From: Halopseudomonas nanhaiensis
GTDB lineage: Bacteria; Pseudomonadota; Gammaproteobacteria; Pseudomonadales; Pseudomonadaceae
Assembly: GCF_020025155.1 (NCBI RefSeq)
Contig: NZ_CP073751.1
Coordinates: 3,127,501 to 3,191,500, forward strand
Length of the DNA stretch: 64,000 bases
Direction of reading: 5' to 3'
Part shown: positions 11,785 through 53,905 of the stretch, one piece after another
Position numbering within the stretch: position 1 is the first letter of the stretch
Layout: every line of letters starts with the position of its first letter
The notes under the pieces: generated by a model
Told to the model about the DNA's origin: nothing
Databases searched by the model: none
What the model saw: the letters and a program-made list of their open reading frames with translations, nothing else
Program-made: the position numbers and the translations under genes

Positions 11785-12582
11785 ATGTACCTTTTAGGTG
11801 ACCAGCCCCTTTATGCGGAAAAACTGATCAGCACACTGCAGCGTATCCCCGAGCAACTGCTCGATGGCCTCGAACCGTGCGACGAGCCGCTGCATCTGGA
11901 GTCGGTCGATGATCTTTATGCCACCATCGGCGCCAACCGTCTCTACCTGCTCAAGACCGGTCTGCTGCATGCGCTGATCGAAGGCAAACCGCTGTTTTAC
12001 ATGCAGGAGGGCGATCTGATCGGGCTTCGCCAGGGGTTGAACACCGCGCCATGCGTGTATACCAGTGACGAGCCACTGGAACTCATTCCCTACGATCGGG
12101 AAGCGCTTTTCAAGCACATTCACGCCAGCAGCCAGCGTCAGGAGCAATTCACTCAGTACATTCTCGGCCAGGCGGCGCTGATGTCCGATGCGTTGGCGCA
12201 CAACAAGCCTGCCGAAATCCGTCCTGTCACCGGGTTCCAGCACTTTGCTCCCGGTGCCGAGCTGATTCGCCAGGGCGATGAGGCCGATCATGTGTTCATC
12301 ATCACCGAAGGCCATGCCGAGGCGTTCGTCGAGGGGATCAAGGTCGGCGACGTCCAGAAGGATGAGATTTTCGGAGCCATGGCGCTGTTCACCCGCGAGA
12401 AACGCTCTGCCACGGTTATTGCCAGCAGTCCGACTACGGTAATGATGATACCCAAGGATCAGTTCCTGGCGCTGATGCAGAGTAACCCACGCATCGCCCA
12501 CAGCCTCATCGAAAGTATGGCCCGCCGCATTGATCTGATGAACAAGGAACTGACGCATTACAAACAGCTCGCGCAAAAATAA
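11785..12582 (+). CDS. cbpA: Cyclic-nucleotide-binding domain protein (CbpA-like)
   Basis: 265 residues. The C-terminal half is a cyclic-nucleotide-binding fold of the Crp type (FAPGAELIRQGDEADHVFI, then the phosphate-binding region GDEIFGAMALF..REKRSATV), with no helix-turn-helix behind it. The N-terminal ~140 residues are a degenerate second copy or a family-specific domain. Gene order (cbpA followed by prrF and phu genes) and size match CbpA of P. aeruginosa, a cAMP-binding protein controlled by Vfr; its cellular role is not settled. The start at 11785 has AAAGGA about nine nucleotides upstream. It points toward the PrrF gene. Confidence 0.82.
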   Translation: MYLLGDQPLYAEKLISTLQRIPEQLLDGLEPCDEPLHLESVDDLYATIGANRLYLLKTGLLHALIEGKPLFYMQEGDLIGLRQGLNTAPCVYTSDEPLELIPYDREALFKHIHASSQRQEQFTQYILGQAALMSDALAHNKPAEIRPVTGFQHFAPGAELIRQGDEADHVFIITEGHAEAFVEGIKVGDVQKDEIFGAMALFTREKRSATVIASSPTTVMMIPKDQFLALMQSNPRIAHSLIESMARRIDLMNKELTHYKQLAQK

Positions 12583-12595
12583 TCCGTCGATCGCC

Positions 12596-12624
12596 TTGAC
12601 ATGCAAATGATAACGATTACTATT
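12596..12624 (+). promoter_or_regulatory. PrrF promoter with overlapping Fur box
   Basis: -35 TTGACA (12596-12601), 16-nt spacer, -10 TACTAT (12618-12623). The spacer and -10 are covered by a Fur-box-like sequence (ATGATAACGATTACTATTA, 12607-12625) that resembles the 19-bp consensus GATAATGATAATCATTATC. Fe-loaded Fur bound here would block transcription, so the RNA should appear under iron starvation. Confidence 0.85.
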
Positions 12625-12629
12625 ACCAC

Positions 12630-12736
12630 AAGTCATCGCGAGATGGCTTAGATAACGGATTGTCGCGAGGCAAGCGGTTATCTCCTCATCAGGCTAATCA
12701 CGGATTAGGCCCGCTCCCTGAGCGGGCCATTTTTTT
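12630..12736 (+). ncRNA. prrF: PrrF iron-responsive small RNA
   Basis: A roughly 107-nt RNA. It begins with a TCGCGAG-containing 5' hairpin and carries the unpaired core CTCATCAGGCTAATCACGG (12684-12702), which in PrrF RNAs pairs with mRNAs for iron-containing proteins such as sodB and TCA-cycle enzymes. It ends in a GC-rich terminator hairpin. The core sequence, the Fur-type promoter and the place between cbpA and the heme genes all match PrrF1/PrrF2 of P. aeruginosa. Only one copy fits in the 160-bp gap, whereas P. aeruginosa has two in tandem. Identity rests on recall of the PrrF core, not on an alignment. Confidence 0.88.
12708..12736 (+). terminator. Intrinsic terminator of PrrF
   Basis: Stem GCCCGCTC / GAGCGGGC with a CCT loop, followed by CA and seven Ts. 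It forms the 3' end of the sRNA and provides the Hfq-binding U tail. Confidence 0.92.
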
Positions 12737-12742
12737 GGGCGT

Positions 12743-13597
12743 CTACCAGCTTTCGCAGTAGTCCGTCGCCGGCATCGCTGGCGTCAGCCATAGGTAATCG
12801 GCCTGTTCGGCAGAAGGCAGTTCAGCGCCGGCCTCCACCAGCATGACCACCACCGGACGCGGCTCCTTCGGCCAGTGCAGCGGCAAGCCCACATCCTTAC
12901 GCGCATGAAAACTCCCGGCGATCAGCAGCGCAGGCGTCGCCGCACCAGACAGCGTTTCGGCCATGCGCCGGTCTCGGGCGTACTGAATCGCGAGCATGGC
13001 GGGAATTTGGCTGGCGGGCAGCTTCCCGCAATGGGCGTCGATGATGGTCTGCTCGAGATAGCCGCGCTGCTCGGCATCGTATTCGGGCATGGGCGGCACC
13101 GCGCCACGATATAGTCGACTGATTTCGTCTCGGTCCAGATTGGCGGGTATCAGCTGTTTCGGTTCGCGCAGCCCCCATTGGACCAGATCACCGTAAAGCG
13201 CCCACGGCCATCCAGCGTTCCAATTCAGGCGCGTCTGGAGCGCTTGCGAAGACAGCTCGGGAAGCTGCCGGGCGGCGTCCAACCCCTCCTGCTGCGCAGG
13301 CACCAGCATTTCCAGCAGCAGCGATCCCTGCGGGCGCTGGGCATGCAGTTGCTCGAGCAACCAGAGCTGCAGCGCGTGATGATCAGGGTTGTCGTGTTTC
13401 TCGCCGATCAGCACGTAAGGTTCGCCGGCCAGGCGATCCGCCAGCGCATGCGCGTCGATCCATTCCCCTGCGGCGGTATCCAGTGCCTGACCAAGCTGCA
13501 GGTGATCGCGCTCCTCGGGAGCGGACCACTGTGGCAAATCGGCGGCGAGTACGGCGAACACTGAACAGGACACTACTGCGCAGATCAGTCGTCTCAT
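12743..13597 (-). CDS. phuW: ChaN-family heme-binding exported protein (PhuW-like)
   Basis: 284 residues with a signal peptide (to about residue 19, ...AVLA). The ChaN domain follows: VLIGEKHDNPDHH near the N-terminus, then LLLEML, and IAGSFHARKDVGLPLHW near the C-terminus. ChaN of Campylobacter binds heme as a dimer. In P. aeruginosa the equivalent gene phuW ends the phu heme-uptake operon. It is last in hmuU-hmuV-phuW (6-nt gap after hmuV) and convergent with PrrF. An early Cys (residue 11) is too close to the N-terminus for a convincing lipobox. Confidence 0.85.
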   Translation of the reverse strand: MRRLICAVVSCSVFAVLAADLPQWSAPEERDHLQLGQALDTAAGEWIDAHALADRLAGEPYVLIGEKHDNPDHHALQLWLLEQLHAQRPQGSLLLEMLVPAQQEGLDAARQLPELSSQALQTRLNWNAGWPWALYGDLVQWGLREPKQLIPANLDRDEISRLYRGAVPPMPEYDAEQRGYLEQTIIDAHCGKLPASQIPAMLAIQYARDRRMAETLSGAATPALLIAGSFHARKDVGLPLHWPKEPRPVVVMLVEAGAELPSAEQADYLWLTPAMPATDYCESW

Positions 13598-13603
13598 GAG
13601 GCC

Positions 13604-14365
13604 TCACATGATGATCAAGGGGCGGTCTTCAGCCGGGTGTTGCTGCACCTGTGCGCGAACGCCGAATATCTGCTCGATGCGCTCGGCCTGCAACACCTCC
13701 CACGGCGTACCCAGCGCCGCCATGCGGCCATTGCTCAGCAGTAGCACCCGGTCAGCATAGCGGGCCGCCAGGTTCAGATCATGCAGCGTGACCAGAGCCG
13801 CGCCGCCTCGCTGCGCCACATTGCGGGCTGCGGCCAGTGCCAGATGCTGATGAGCGATGTCCAGCGCTGCTGTCGGCTCGTCCATCAACAAGCATGGTTG
13901 CGGCACATTCCACACCTGCGCCAGCACCCGCGCGAGGTGAACGCGCTGTCGCTCGCCGCCTGACAGGTGCAGATAGTTGCGCATCGCCAGATGCGTTGCA
14001 TCCGCCTGGGCCAGTGCCTCGGCCACGGCCTGATTGTCAGCGGCCAGGCCGCTGCGGTGGGGCAACCGCCCTAGGGCGACGACCTCCCCCGCGCGAAAGC
14101 CGAATGCCAGTGTGGAGGTCTGAGGGAGCACGGCCATCCGCTGCGCCCGCGCAGTCGGCTCGATCTGCGAGAGAACGTCACCGTGAAAACGAAGCTCGCC
14201 TTTACCCGGCCGGAGCTCCCCTGCCAGCGTCGCCAGCAAGGTACTTTTCCCGGAGCCGTTGACCCCGAGCACTGCGATCACCTCCCCGCTTGCGAGGGTG
14301 AAGGAGAGATCGGACAACACCCGTTGAGGCCCGCGGGAGCAGGCCACGCCGACCAGCTCAAGCAT
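13604..14365 (-). CDS. hmuV: Heme ABC transporter ATP-binding protein (HmuV/PhuV)
   Basis: ATPase of an inner-membrane heme importer. The 253-residue protein has Walker A (GVNGSGKST), the ABC signature LSGGERQRVHLARVLAQ, Walker B (CLLMDEPTAALD) and the switch His in ALVTLHDLN. Its start overlaps the end of hmuU by eight nucleotides, so the two subunits are translationally coupled. Called phuV in P. aeruginosa. Confidence 0.94.
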   Translation of the reverse strand: MLELVGVACSRGPQRVLSDLSFTLASGEVIAVLGVNGSGKSTLLATLAGELRPGKGELRFHGDVLSQIEPTARAQRMAVLPQTSTLAFGFRAGEVVALGRLPHRSGLAADNQAVAEALAQADATHLAMRNYLHLSGGERQRVHLARVLAQVWNVPQPCLLMDEPTAALDIAHQHLALAAARNVAQRGGAALVTLHDLNLAARYADRVLLLSNGRMAALGTPWEVLQAERIEQIFGVRAQVQQHPAEDRPLIIM

Positions 14366-15392
14366 GCGTCACCCCCGTGCGCATACGGTATAGCAGAACA
14401 AGAAAAAACGGCGCGCCCAGAGCGGCGGTGAGGATGCCGATCGGTAGCTCCGCAGGCGCCATCAGCAGCCGGGCAGCGATGTCAGCGAGCAGCATCAGCG
14501 TGGCGCCGAGTAGCATCGAAGCGGGCAACAGCGGGCGATGATCCGGCCCGACCATGAGCCGCGCGAGATGCGGCACCATGAGTCCGACGAAGCCGATTAG
14601 GCCGGCAGCCGCAACACTGGCAGCCACACCCAGCGCGGTGAGAATGATGAGTTCGAGTTTCAGCCGCGCAACATCGAGTCCCAGGTGATGCGCCTCCGAT
14701 TCGCCGAGCAGCAACGCGTTCAGCTCCCGGGCGCGGCGCGGCAGGCGCCACCACACCAGTGCGCAGCACAGCGCCAGCATGATCACCCGTTCGTAACTCG
14801 CGTGAGCCAGTGTCCCCATGTTCCAGAAGGTCAGGGTGCGCAGCATGCTGCTGTCGGCCAGATAGCCGAGCAGCCCGATGAGCGCACCACTCAACGTGGT
14901 GATCGCCACCCCAGCCAGCAGCATGCTGGACATGGCCCCACCCTGCAGCGCCTGACCCAGGCGATAGACGACGATGGTGCTGACCACGCCGCCAACGAAA
15001 GCACCGGATACCGTGAGGTACGGTGACAATACACGGGGCAGGAGCTCTGCCAGCCCGACTCCGAAAACAATGGCGAGCGCCGCACCCAGCGCTGCACCGC
15101 CCGAGACACCGATCAATCCCGGATCCGCTAGCGGATTACGAAACAGCCCTTGCATCGCAGCACCCGTAAGGGCGAGCGTCGCCCCGGTCATCGCTCCCAT
15201 CAGCGCCCGGGGCAGCCGTATCTGTTCGACGATTAACTGCTCGCCGGGTGCAACGCCCGTCACCTCAGCCCACGGCCACAACACGCGCAACACGTCAGCC
15301 GGCGCGATGGCCACGGCGCCGATGGCCAGCGATAACAGACATGCCAGCAGCAGGGCTGCGGCGAGCAGCGAAAACAGCAGATAGCGACTCAT
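14358..15392 (-). CDS. hmuU: Heme ABC transporter permease (HmuU/PhuU)
   Basis: FecCD-family permease of 344 residues with about ten hydrophobic segments. It has the family motifs LPRALMGAMTGATLALTGAAMQGLFRNPLADPGLIG and, near the C-terminus, GFVGLMVPHLAR (both only named here as landmarks). The start is ATG 15390-15392; the frame is open further upstream, but that extension is hydrophilic and atypical. In related species a periplasmic heme-binding gene (hmuT/phuT) precedes it; here the upstream neighbour is a divergent Rieske gene and no hmuT is present in the window. Confidence 0.93.
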   Translation of the reverse strand: MSRYLLFSLLAAALLLACLLSLAIGAVAIAPADVLRVLWPWAEVTGVAPGEQLIVEQIRLPRALMGAMTGATLALTGAAMQGLFRNPLADPGLIGVSGGAALGAALAIVFGVGLAELLPRVLSPYLTVSGAFVGGVVSTIVVYRLGQALQGGAMSSMLLAGVAITTLSGALIGLLGYLADSSMLRTLTFWNMGTLAHASYERVIMLALCCALVWWRLPRRARELNALLLGESEAHHLGLDVARLKLELIILTALGVAASVAAAGLIGFVGLMVPHLARLMVGPDHRPLLPASMLLGATLMLLADIAARLLMAPAELPIGILTAALGAPFFLVLLYRMRTGVTHA

Positions 15393-15487: not shown

Positions 15488-15826
15488 ATGCCAACCACTG
15501 CTGATACTCAACCTGTTGCCCTGTGCCGACTCGAGGATATTCCCGACCCGGGCAGCCGCGGCCTGACTCACGCCGGCGAACAACTGTTTGCCGTGCGCCA
15601 GGGTGCGGACGTCCAGGTCTTCGTCAACCGCTGTCCACACCGAGGGATTCCCCTGGAGTGGGTGCCCGACCAGTTTCTCGACAGCTCCGGCCGGCTGATT
15701 CAGTGCGCCACACACGGCGCGCTGTTCCTGCCCGATACCGGCGAATGCGTCAGCGGACCCTGCGCCGGCGAGCGGCTTGCCAGACGCGAGAGCCGCGTTC
15801 AGGACGGCCAGGTCTGGCTGGTCTGA
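15488..15826 (+). CDS. Rieske [2Fe-2S] domain protein
   Basis: A 112-residue stand-alone Rieske ferredoxin-like protein. The cluster ligands are visible as CPHRG and CATHG, separated by about 22 residues. It has no signal peptide or membrane anchor, so it is probably a cytoplasmic electron carrier or assembly-associated protein. It is divergent from hmuU with 95 bp between the starts, and ends 6 nt before the convergent sfsA stop. Its role is not known; iron supply is the obvious link to its neighbours. Confidence 0.85.
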   Translation: MPTTADTQPVALCRLEDIPDPGSRGLTHAGEQLFAVRQGADVQVFVNRCPHRGIPLEWVPDQFLDSSGRLIQCATHGALFLPDTGECVSGPCAGERLARRESRVQDGQVWLV

Positions 15827-15831
15827 CCCGT

Positions 15832-16548
15832 TCACAGGGCCACCGGTAGCTGACCGCGGACCTGCAGCCCGGCCGGCGTTGGCCACACCGACCATGCGAT
15901 CACCTCGACACCATTGGCCGCCGCCTGGCGTAAAACACGACCATAGACCGGATCGATGTGGTCGGCGGGCGCAACCTCGGCGATACCGCTGTGCATCACG
16001 CAGAACAGCATGCAGGCGCGCCGGCCCGCCGCGGCGACTTCAATCAGTTCCAGCAGGTGCTTCTGCCCTCGCGTGCTGACGGCATCCGGAAACGCGCCCT
16101 GCCCGGCCCCCAGACCGAGGGTCACGCTCTTCACTTCAACGACACATTCACCCGGATCGCTCAACAGGAAATCGAAGCGACTCTTTCCGGGACTCAGGCA
16201 GACCTCGGCGCGTTGGCTGGCGTAGCCGCTCAGCGGGGTGATCAGACCGGCGCGCAGCGAGGCAGCCACGACCTTGTTGGCCCGCGCACTGTGCACGCAA
16301 GCCAATGCCCCGTCGGGTGTCTGCACCAGCTCCCAGGTACCCGGAAGCTTGCGCCCCGGCCGGTCCTGCAAGGCGACCCAGACCGGGCTGCCGGGCTCGC
16401 CACACCGCAACATGGACCCGGTGTTGGGACAGTGCACGGTGACCTCACGGCCATCGTCAAGCACGACATCGGCAAAGAAGCGCTTGTAGCGCCTGACCAG
16501 CGTCCCGCGCTCCAGCGGAACGTCGAAGGGAATCAGCATGCCTGCCAT
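15832..16548 (-). CDS. sfsA: SfsA family protein (sugar fermentation stimulation / nuclease fold)
   Basis: 238 residues with the SfsA signatures RRYKRFFADV, VHCPNTGSM and VEVKSVTL; the last lies in a nuclease-like fold with acidic metal ligands. SfsA has been described both as a maltose-metabolism regulator that binds DNA and as a nuclease-like protein. The start overlaps the end of the upstream aminotransferase gene by 16 nt. A start three codons later (16539) is also possible but has the ribosome binding site too close. Confidence 0.92.
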   Translation of the reverse strand: MAGMLIPFDVPLERGTLVRRYKRFFADVVLDDGREVTVHCPNTGSMLRCGEPGSPVWVALQDRPGRKLPGTWELVQTPDGALACVHSARANKVVAASLRAGLITPLSGYASQRAEVCLSPGKSRFDFLLSDPGECVVEVKSVTLGLGAGQGAFPDAVSTRGQKHLLELIEVAAAGRRACMLFCVMHSGIAEVAPADHIDPVYGRVLRQAAANGVEVIAWSVWPTPAGLQVRGQLPVAL

Positions 16549-24194: not shown

Positions 24195-24545
24195 CACAAC
24201 AACAATAAAAACCAGAAACGAATAACAAAAATAATATCGGCTTCACAGACAACAAAAATAAAACCGTGCAAGCGCAGCAAACTGATTTTTTTGGAGAATG
24301 GGATCGACAGTCGAACAGAAATGTTCGCGGACACGCTAAGAATAAAAGTTGCCAGAGCAACCCGACGCGTCCGAGCTTAAAGTACTGCCTGATGTCTAAG
24401 CTTCCAAAGCAATCCGTTTGTTTTTGGTAGCCCGGGATGGGCTTATACAGGCGACGCTGTCGCCTTGCCTAAAAACAACAATAGCTCGACAGACAATAAC
24501 AATAAAAAAACATCGCCATTAGGGGGAGTCGCTACTCCCCTTGAG
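24195..24545 (+). ncRNA. crcZ: CrcZ small RNA, antagonist of Hfq/Crc catabolite repression
   Basis: A roughly 350-nt RNA between cbrB and pcnB, the fixed place of CrcZ in Pseudomonas. Five A-rich CA blocks of the AANAANAA type are visible at 24198-24211, 24221-24235, 24249-24263, 24471-24483 and 24493-24510. These bind and sequester Hfq/Crc, lifting repression of catabolic mRNAs. The 3' end is set by the hairpin at 24523-24540. There is no credible protein frame in the region. Ends are approximate. Confidence 0.9.
24522..24545 (+). terminator. Hairpin at the 3' end of crcZ
   Basis: Stem GGGGAGT / ACTCCCC with loop CGCT, followed by TTGAGCTTT. The T tract is interrupted, so termination may be leaky or assisted. 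Confidence 0.65.
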
Positions 24546-24561
24546 CTTTCCCCCTCCCTTA

Positions 24562-24591
24562 TTACAATTTTCCGCGCGTTCAGGCTAGAAT
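24562..24591 (+). promoter_or_regulatory. Possible sigma70 promoter of pcnB
   Basis: TTACAA (24562-24567), an 18-nt gap and TAGAAT (24586-24591) lie between the crcZ terminator and pcnB. The -10 is good, the -35 weak and the spacing long, so this is a suggestion only. Confidence 0.4.
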
Positions 24592-41697: not shown

Positions 41698-41967
41698 TTA
41701 GCGACGCAGACCCAGACTGCTGATCAAGCTGCTGTAACGAGCAAGGTCCTTCGACTTCAGGTAGTCCAGCAGCTTGCGGCGCTGGTTGACCATGCGAATC
41801 AGACCGCGACGGGAATGGTGATCCTTCTTGTTGTCCTTGAAGTGACCCTGCAGCTTGTTGATGTTTGCGGTCAACAGAGCTACCTGGACTTCCGGAGAAC
41901 CGGTGTCACCTTCCCCACGCTTGTACTCGTTTACGATTGCAGCTTTATCTTCGACGCTCAGTGCCAT
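41698..41967 (-). CDS. rpsO: 30S ribosomal protein S15
   Basis: 89 residues, the standard length. Primary 16S-binding protein with the family segments [17 protein letters not shown] and [30 protein letters not shown] stands before the ATG. In E. coli S15 represses its own translation through a leader pseudoknot; whether that holds here was not examined. Confidence 0.98.
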
Positions 41968-42090
41968 GACAGCTTTCCTCTGAGGTAACAGGCCGGGAGC
42001 GAAATCCCGTGTTTTAAATCGAGGTATGACCGTGCCTGTTGACAGCCACCCTCGTTGTGACCCGAACGGGTCAACTTCGTCGAGCCCCGA

Positions 42091-51949: not shown

Positions 51950-53905
51950 TCAGTGCTCTCCGGCTGGCCCGCCGATGACGCCACCGTCCGAGGGCTTATC
52001 GCGGCCTGGCCGCGGCTCGTCAGCAGGATCCTCCGACTCCACCGGCGCGCTCGGACCCTGCCGGTCGTCGCCGCTCCATCCCTTCGGCTCGCGAGGCGGC
52101 CTGCCGGACATGATGTCATTGATCTGCTCGGTGTCGATGGTTTCATACTTCATCAACGCCTCGGCCATCAGATCGAGCTTGTCACGGTTTTCTTCCAGCA
52201 GCCGACGCGCGGTGGCGTAGCAGTCATCGATGATGCTGCGCACTTCCTGGTCAATCATCTTCGCCGTTTCGCCGGATATGTTGCCATTCTGGCCGCCGCC
52301 AGCGCGACCCAGGTAGCCCTCATTCTCATCTTCGCCATACATCAGCGGACCGAGCTTTTCGGACAGACCCCACTTGGTCACCATGTTCCGCGCAAGCTGA
52401 GTCGCCCGCTGGATGTCGTTCGACGCGCCGGTCGTTACACCCTCGAATCCCAGCGTCATCTCTTCGGCGATACGGCCTCCGAACAGCGAACAGATCTGAC
52501 TGTTCAGCGCACGCTTGGACAAGCTGTAGCGATCCTCCTCGGGGAGGAACATGGTGACACCCAGCGCACGGCCGCGCGGGATGATCGACACCTTGTAGAC
52601 CGGGTCGTGCTCGGGCACGAGCCGACCGACGATCGCATGCCCCGACTCGTGATAGGCCGTATTGAGCTTCTCCTTGTCCGACATGACCATGGATTTGCGC
52701 TCGGCGCCCATCATGATCTTGTCCTTGGCCATCTCGAATTCGTTCATCTCGACAAGGCGCTTGCCGGCGCGGGCAGCAAACAATGACGCCTCATTGACGA
52801 GGTTCGCCAGATCTGCACCGGAGAAGCCAGGCGTCCCGCGAGCGATATTGCCAGGCACCACATCGTCACCCAACGGCACCTTGCGCATGTGCACCTTGAG
52901 GATCTGTTCCCGACCACGGATATCCGGCAGGCCGACCACAACCTGACGATCGAAGCGACCCGGACGCAGCAGGGCCGGATCAAGCACATCCGGACGGTTG
53001 GTTGCTGCGATAACGATGATGCCATCGTTCGCTTCGAAGCCGTCCATTTCGACAAGCAACTGGTTCAGAGTCTGTTCACGCTCGTCATGACCGCCGCCCA
53101 TACCGGCGCCACGATGACGCCCGACCGCATCGATCTCATCGATGAAGATAATGCAGGGCGCGTGCTTCTTCGCCTGATCAAACATGTCGCGGACACGGCT
53201 TGCACCGACACCGACGAACATTTCCACGAAGTCAGAGCCGGAGATGGTGAAGAACGGAACCTTGGCCTCGCCCGCAACGGCCTTGGCGAGCAAGGTCTTA
53301 CCGGTACCGGGCTGACCCACCATCAGTACACCACGGGGAATATGACCACCCAGGCGCTGAAACTTGCCGGGATCGCGCAGGAAGTCGACCAGTTCGCTGA
53401 CTTCCTCCTTGGCCTCGTCGCAACCTGCCACATCGCCGAAAGTGGTTTTGACCTGATCTTCAGACAGCATGCGGGCCTTGCTTTTGCCGAAACTCATCGG
53501 ACCGCCACGGCCACCGCCGCCGCCCTGCATCTGACGCATGAAGAACATGAAAATGGCGATGATGATCAGTATCGGGAAGCTGGCTATCAGCAACTGCGTC
53601 CAGATGCTCTGCTGCTCGGGCTGCTTGCCTTCGATGATCACTTCATTGTCGAGAAGATCGCCGATCAGGCCGCTATCCTGGATTGCAGGGCGGATCGTGG
53701 TGAAATTGGTACCGTCGCGACGCTTGCCAGTGATCTCGAAGCCGTCCACCGTGACGCGCTCAACCTGACGATCCTCGACCAGTTCAAGGAACTGGGTGTA
53801 GTTGAGAGTATTGGGCTCAGCGGGACTGCTGAAGTTGTTCATGACCGTGACCAGCACGGCGGCAATGATCAACCACAGAATGAGGTTCTTCGCCATGTCG
53901 TTCAA
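51950..53905 (-). CDS. ftsH: ATP-dependent zinc metalloprotease FtsH (TTG start)
   Basis: Membrane-bound AAA+ protease, 651 residues: two membrane helices (about 7-25 and 107-127) around a periplasmic domain, Walker [13 protein letters not shown], Walker [13 protein letters not shown] region, and the zinc site HESGHA. I keep the first codon at 53903-53905, TTG, because AGAGGG is seven nucleotides upstream of it; the ATG three codons in is too far from that site. The C-terminus is Pro/Asp/Gly-rich. Confidence 0.97.

Follow-up and report, generated by a model that had tools for sequence, protein, structure and literature searches.

Between cbpA and a convergent phuW-like gene, the 64,000-nt stretch of Halopseudomonas nanhaiensis DNA analyzed here (the window) carries a gene for the small RNA PrrF (Table 1). 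In a covariance-model search, the Rfam PrrF family (RF00444) covered positions 12596–12736 of the forward strand end to end with 94.8 bits (E 3.3e-15), which is 4.8 bits above the gathering score of 90 bits. Together with Fur-box-like matches at 14–15 of 19 positions, this bears out the initial annotation, which had placed a PrrF gene with a Fur-boxed promoter, a core and a terminator between cbpA and phuW. Elsewhere the window holds the sRNA CrcZ at 24196–24572 (+) (RF01675, 134.4 bits) and a ribosomal S15 leader at 41911–42031 (−) (RF00114, 52.8 bits).

Table 1. Features of the prrF locus in the window of H. nanhaiensis
Feature	Position	Strand	Evidence or remark
cbpA, cyclic-nucleotide-binding protein, conserved upstream neighbour	11785..12582	+	PF00027; name cbpA from the initial annotation
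Sigma-70-like promoter of prrF, TTGACA-16-TACTAT	12596..12623	+	10/12 matches, predicted
Fur-box-like palindrome, overlaps promoter	12603..12627		12609–12627 14/19 (+), 15/19 (−); 12603–12621 13/19
PrrF RNA, ~110 nt, 5′ end inferred	12627..12736	+	RF00444; fold z −4.21
PrrF stem-loop 1	12630..12649	+	fold and alignment
PrrF stem-loop 2	12650..12683	+	fold and alignment
PrrF antisense core CTCATCAGGCTAATCACGG	12685..12703	+	exact match at 12685
PrrF terminator, stem 12708–12728 with T-run	12708..12736	+	terminator scan
phuW-like, ChaN-domain protein, convergent with prrF	12743..13597	−	PF04187
phuV-like heme-type ABC ATPase	13604..14365	−	NF010068, 312.3 bits, cut-off 261
phuU-like FecCD permease, start set at ATG	14358..15392	−	PF01032
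Rieske [2Fe-2S] protein, divergent from phuU	15488..15826	+	PF00355
sfsA, closes locus	15832..16548	−	TIGR00230

The Fur-box scores were obtained against a 19-position Fur-box consensus. The 15 matches at 12609–12627 were the top score of the 64 kb when both strands were scanned; first-order random sequence gave on average 0.1 sites at 14 matches and 1.3 at 13 per 64 kb, counted on the plus strand only. Only one other place in the window reached 14 of 19 (53555–53573), and it was rejected as a Fur box because it lies inside an FtsH-like gene. The site at prrF aligned across the genus. Taken alone, the terminator call is weak, because the scan gives 0.8 such sites per shuffled region; the fold of the transcript, in turn, beat 200 of 200 shuffles (z −4.21).

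The window holds a single copy of the antisense core CTCATCAGGCTAATCACGG, which was invariant in all 23 aligned Halopseudomonas PrrF rows, and at 7 of the 27 consensus pairs of that alignment both sides had changed with the pair kept. These data bear on the idea that the gene is a decayed or non-transcribed relic, which its score near the Rfam cut-off might suggest. Yet low scores are the rule in the genus (75 to 114 bits, with 10 of 37 genomes below the cut-off), promoter and terminator are intact, the core is unchanged in the aligned rows and the stems are preserved by compensatory changes, so that we regard a relic as hardly credible. The PrrFs of L145, L149, L152, L157 and L161 (G015, G019, G022, G027 and G031) carry an extra stretch of ~30–40 nt between stems 1 and 2, which includes CTCCTTCAG, reminiscent of the anti-ribosome-binding part of the core; the RF00444 match of G026 (172 nt) is of similar length.

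The initial annotation had further described the gene as single-copy, leaving no room for PrrH, and both statements held when the window and the whole genome (one contig of 3,653,147 bases, 100%-complete) were searched with the covariance model. No second prrF was found by RF00444 anywhere on the contig. The sole other match reached 20.3 bits (E 0.80); nowhere in this locus (L002, 3124 bases) did more than 12 of the 19 core bases match, and the hit was rejected as a chance match in which the core is absent. Directly downstream, where PrrH would require a second prrF, none was found, and the convergent gene lies 7 nt past the T-run. With one prrF copy, the PrrF1–PrrF2 read-through RNA (PrrH) cannot be made here.

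Pairing of PrrF with mRNA was evaluated on sodB. For sodB of H. nanhaiensis itself, the predicted duplex with the core segment has −22.6 kcal/mol (z −3.43) and spans positions −29 to −1, counted from the start codon; among the 69 ORF starts in the window just one paired as well as sodB, that of the ORF opposite PrrF itself. Across the 30 sodB loci tested, out of 39 matches in 35 genomes, z was negative in every case (−1.47 to −5.53, mean −3.0), as determined with mononucleotide shuffles and with the PrrF segment of the window used for all 30. In 8 of these 30 genomes at least 11 of the 69 background starts equalled or beat the sodB pairing energy. Duplexes of the whole PrrF transcript with sodB gave no signal over the 30 loci (z −1.95 to +0.97), and the core-segment test was run in place of this one. 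Near-complements of the core (GATTAGCCTGATGAG, up to three mismatches) were found at 101 places in the genome vs. 36 for the reversed pattern; codon usage is a possible reason for this excess, and the sodB site was absent among the near-complement places listed.

As the core can pair with the ribosome-binding region of the genome's own sodB, ordinary iron sparing is the best explanation for the gene. Fe-Fur would repress prrF from the box that overlaps the promoter, and at low iron the ~110-nt RNA would be made and would stop at its own terminator. Through its core it would then bind mRNAs that encode dispensable iron proteins, sodB being the clearest case, at their ribosome-binding region, and this pairing, presumably with Hfq, would block translation and promote decay. 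The prrF gene, its single copy, the promoter-like and Fur-box-like sites, the fold and the computed sodB pairing are direct results; for this gene we infer the iron response, the role of Hfq, the repression of targets and the 5′ end of PrrF, the mechanism itself being well established for PrrF RNAs. We thus consider it very probable that the locus encodes an ordinary single-copy PrrF, Fur-repressed and iron-sparing, whose core pairs with iron-protein mRNAs and which forms no PrrH.

Single copies proved to be widespread. RF00444 matched in 36 of 37 Halopseudomonas genomes, the one without a match being 75%-complete; 31 of the 37 have one copy and five have two, in tandem in four genomes and on two contigs in one. 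All 298 genomes of a Pseudomonadaceae sample gave a match; by a hand tally with checked sums, 161 are single-copy and 137 carry at least two copies, and single copies are the majority in 14 of the 19 genus groups. The family search used strict filters that may lose weak copies; for the 28 genomes shared by both sets it agreed with the more sensitive genus search. The PrrF of the window is an ordinary representative of an established sRNA family and shows the copy state met most often; the rarity of a single copy had been overstated by the initial annotation. Single copies are also in print: the available part of PMC6922518 describes, for P. pseudoalcaligenes CECT 5344, a single prrF beside phuSTUVW that is almost 700-fold up in a fur mutant, and that of PMC8085936 states a single prrF for Pseudomonas sp. 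ABC1, P. stutzeri, P. xanthomarina and A. vinelandii (ArrF), all of which share the single copy with the window. A literature search, made mostly without subscription papers, found no paper naming both Halopseudomonas and PrrF. In one genome, G025, a second, dispersed PrrF (L156:9095–9198) lies between a HasR-like receptor gene and a FecR-like gene. The setting is that of a has-type heme locus, where a HasA-like protein scores slightly below the Pfam cut-off and genes for type I secretion follow further out.

The gene neighbourhood of prrF is conserved. Within a named collection, the closest CbpA sequences come from Halopseudomonas and from Pseudomonas species grouped with it, and the nearest genome by CbpA (L164, 96%) has the same gene order. 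Part of the genus (L132, L138, L141, L154 and others) carries what by size, order and sequence starts appear to be an RND-type efflux operon and a TetR-like regulator between prrF and phuW. In H. nanhaiensis phuU, phuV and phuW are intact reading frames; phuT, phuS and phuR were not found beside them, with no room before sfsA (phuS and phuT were searched with one query each, from L138). Of the 34 cbpA-site regions examined in the genus, 16 retain the trio but have neither phuT nor phuS, so that it probably has some use.

These intact and recurrently kept genes, together with the conserved neighbourhood, invite the view that prrF belongs to a working heme-responsive circuit, in which PhuUVW would import heme and PrrF would answer heme as PrrH does in P. 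aeruginosa. Six Peripla_BP_2 proteins are encoded elsewhere in the genome, one of which might serve PhuUV in place of the PhuT missing at the site. Several results speak against such a circuit. The genome gave no match to the HemS family, to which PhuS belongs, and no TonB receptor above the heme-receptor cut-off, the best reaching 246.6 vs. 316.85 bits; the gene for this best match shares an operon with one for a binding protein that comes closest to a ferrichrome/ferrioxamine family, below the cut-off of that family. The only heme oxygenase of the genome adjoins a bacteriophytochrome-like gene. Upstream of phuU no Fur box was seen, as the best score, 10 of 19, equals the background level (among 200 random stretches of the window 21 scored 8, 70 scored 9, 62 scored 10, 41 scored 11, 4 scored 12 and 2 scored 15). 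A relative with phuS, L138, scores 13 of 19 upstream of that gene on each strand, and L165, a relative without phuS, also reaches 13, which makes this contrast between relatives weak evidence. With a single prrF and hence no PrrH, we judge a heme-responsive circuit very unlikely. The heme locus beside prrF is a remnant, phuUVW, and the coupling to heme uptake proposed in the initial annotation found no backing in the absence of phuT, phuS and phuR at the site, of HemS and of a receptor over the cut-off in the genome, and of a Fur box before phuU.

Like the window, P. pseudoalcaligenes CECT 5344 has one prrF beside phu, on the opposite strand and with a Fur box; in the available text of PMC6922518, however, it possesses the whole Fur-regulated phuSTUVW and phuR, whereas the window has phuUVW only, with no visible Fur box. 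PrrF1, PrrF2 and PrrH of P. aeruginosa share with the window the RF00444 family and the place between phu and cbpA (gene order taken from the papers and the initial annotation). They differ in that the P. aeruginosa genes are in tandem, PrrH is made and PhuS binds the promoter, according to the accessible parts of PMC2851614, PMC10597452 and PMC7948967, while the window has one copy, no PrrH and no PhuS. The Halopseudomonas tandems of L132, L138, L141 and L154 agree with the window in site and core; there, two prrF copies lie 237–260 nt apart in company with phuSTUVW, whereas the window has one copy and neither phuS nor phuT at the site.

P. aeruginosa is not alone in having tandem prrF, which a clade of Halopseudomonas carries as well. 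Of the 80 named cbpA loci, 16 hold tandems of two or three cores, and all 16 have phuS, 13 in the fetched DNA and three by matching genome regions (L057, whose contig breaks off too soon, was given no phuS label). The converse fails, since 18 of the 64 single-copy named loci also have phuS in the fetched DNA. For the family we used 75 multi-copy genomes, 71 from outside Halopseudomonas (of 133; the remaining 62 are all of group g14, without HemS) and four from Halopseudomonas. Pairs of prrF within 1.5 kb were present in 32 of the 75, with HemS in 27 of these close-pair genomes; five gave no HemS match, and a strict rule that tandem implies PhuS was rejected on this ground. Within Halopseudomonas, two copies occur in 5 of 12 genomes with HemS vs. 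0 of 25 without (Fisher p 0.0018, with kinship ignored), one of the five being a dispersed pair and not a tandem. A tree-based paired test offered only two supported pairs and with that number cannot be significant. Taken together, the association of tandem prrF with PhuS is suggestive. Higher numbers were also seen, with four prrF copies in tandem in G161 and three in L101.

The site shared by the window and the L132, L138, L141 and L154 tandems raises the question of secondary reduction, that is, an ancestor with tandem prrF and a complete phu locus that lost one prrF together with phuRST. These relatives have two prrF copies and phuSTUVW at the same site, which speaks for this reading. Against this, the named tandem rows L042, L044 and L045 form one supported clade (99*) amid single-copy Halopseudomonas rows in the CbpA tree, although the backbone of the tree has poor support (stars on 15 of 72 inner branches). 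Moreover, L139 and L149 are single-copy and yet have complete phuS and phuT at the site, so that the loss of phuRST can be separated from copy number. We therefore consider secondary reduction unlikely. The single copy in the window had also been called perhaps ancestral. For Halopseudomonas this is partly right, given how common the single copy is and how the tandem clade sits inside single-copy rows of the weakly supported tree; the direction for the whole family is not derivable from copy number alone.

Among the 81 CbpA rows, the tandem state needs at least five changes on this weakly supported tree. The linkers between the copies were compared as well. Those of the four Halopseudomonas tandems are mutually alike (z 7.6 to 17.1), with little or no similarity to those of 13 Pseudomonas tandems, a set without P. 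aeruginosa (z −0.7 to 3.9); some Pseudomonas linkers are unlike each other too. Such linkers would fit either independent duplication or an old linker that may have diverged beyond recognition. We tentatively entertain the possibility that tandem prrF, and with it possible PrrH-like RNAs, arose more than once in Pseudomonadaceae, mainly in PhuS genomes and with unrelated linkers, while lineages that, like the one the window comes from, have lost phuRST would keep a single, heme-blind PrrF.

The finding chiefly extends the list of single-PrrF organisms by Halopseudomonas. The comparison also corrects two printed statements, as far as the accessible text of each source goes: that only P. aeruginosa carries prrF in tandem (PMC2851614), a statement that PMC4211561 had already relaxed by naming a strain each of P. 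denitrificans and P. mendocina, and that prrF duplication goes together with phuS and is missing in other Pseudomonads (PMC7948967). If the reading of multiple origins is true, it would extend the link between prrF duplication and phuS, confined to P. aeruginosa according to PMC7948967, to further lineages. Because prrF copy number and PhuS vary among close relatives, the PhuS–PrrH idea would be testable outside P. aeruginosa.
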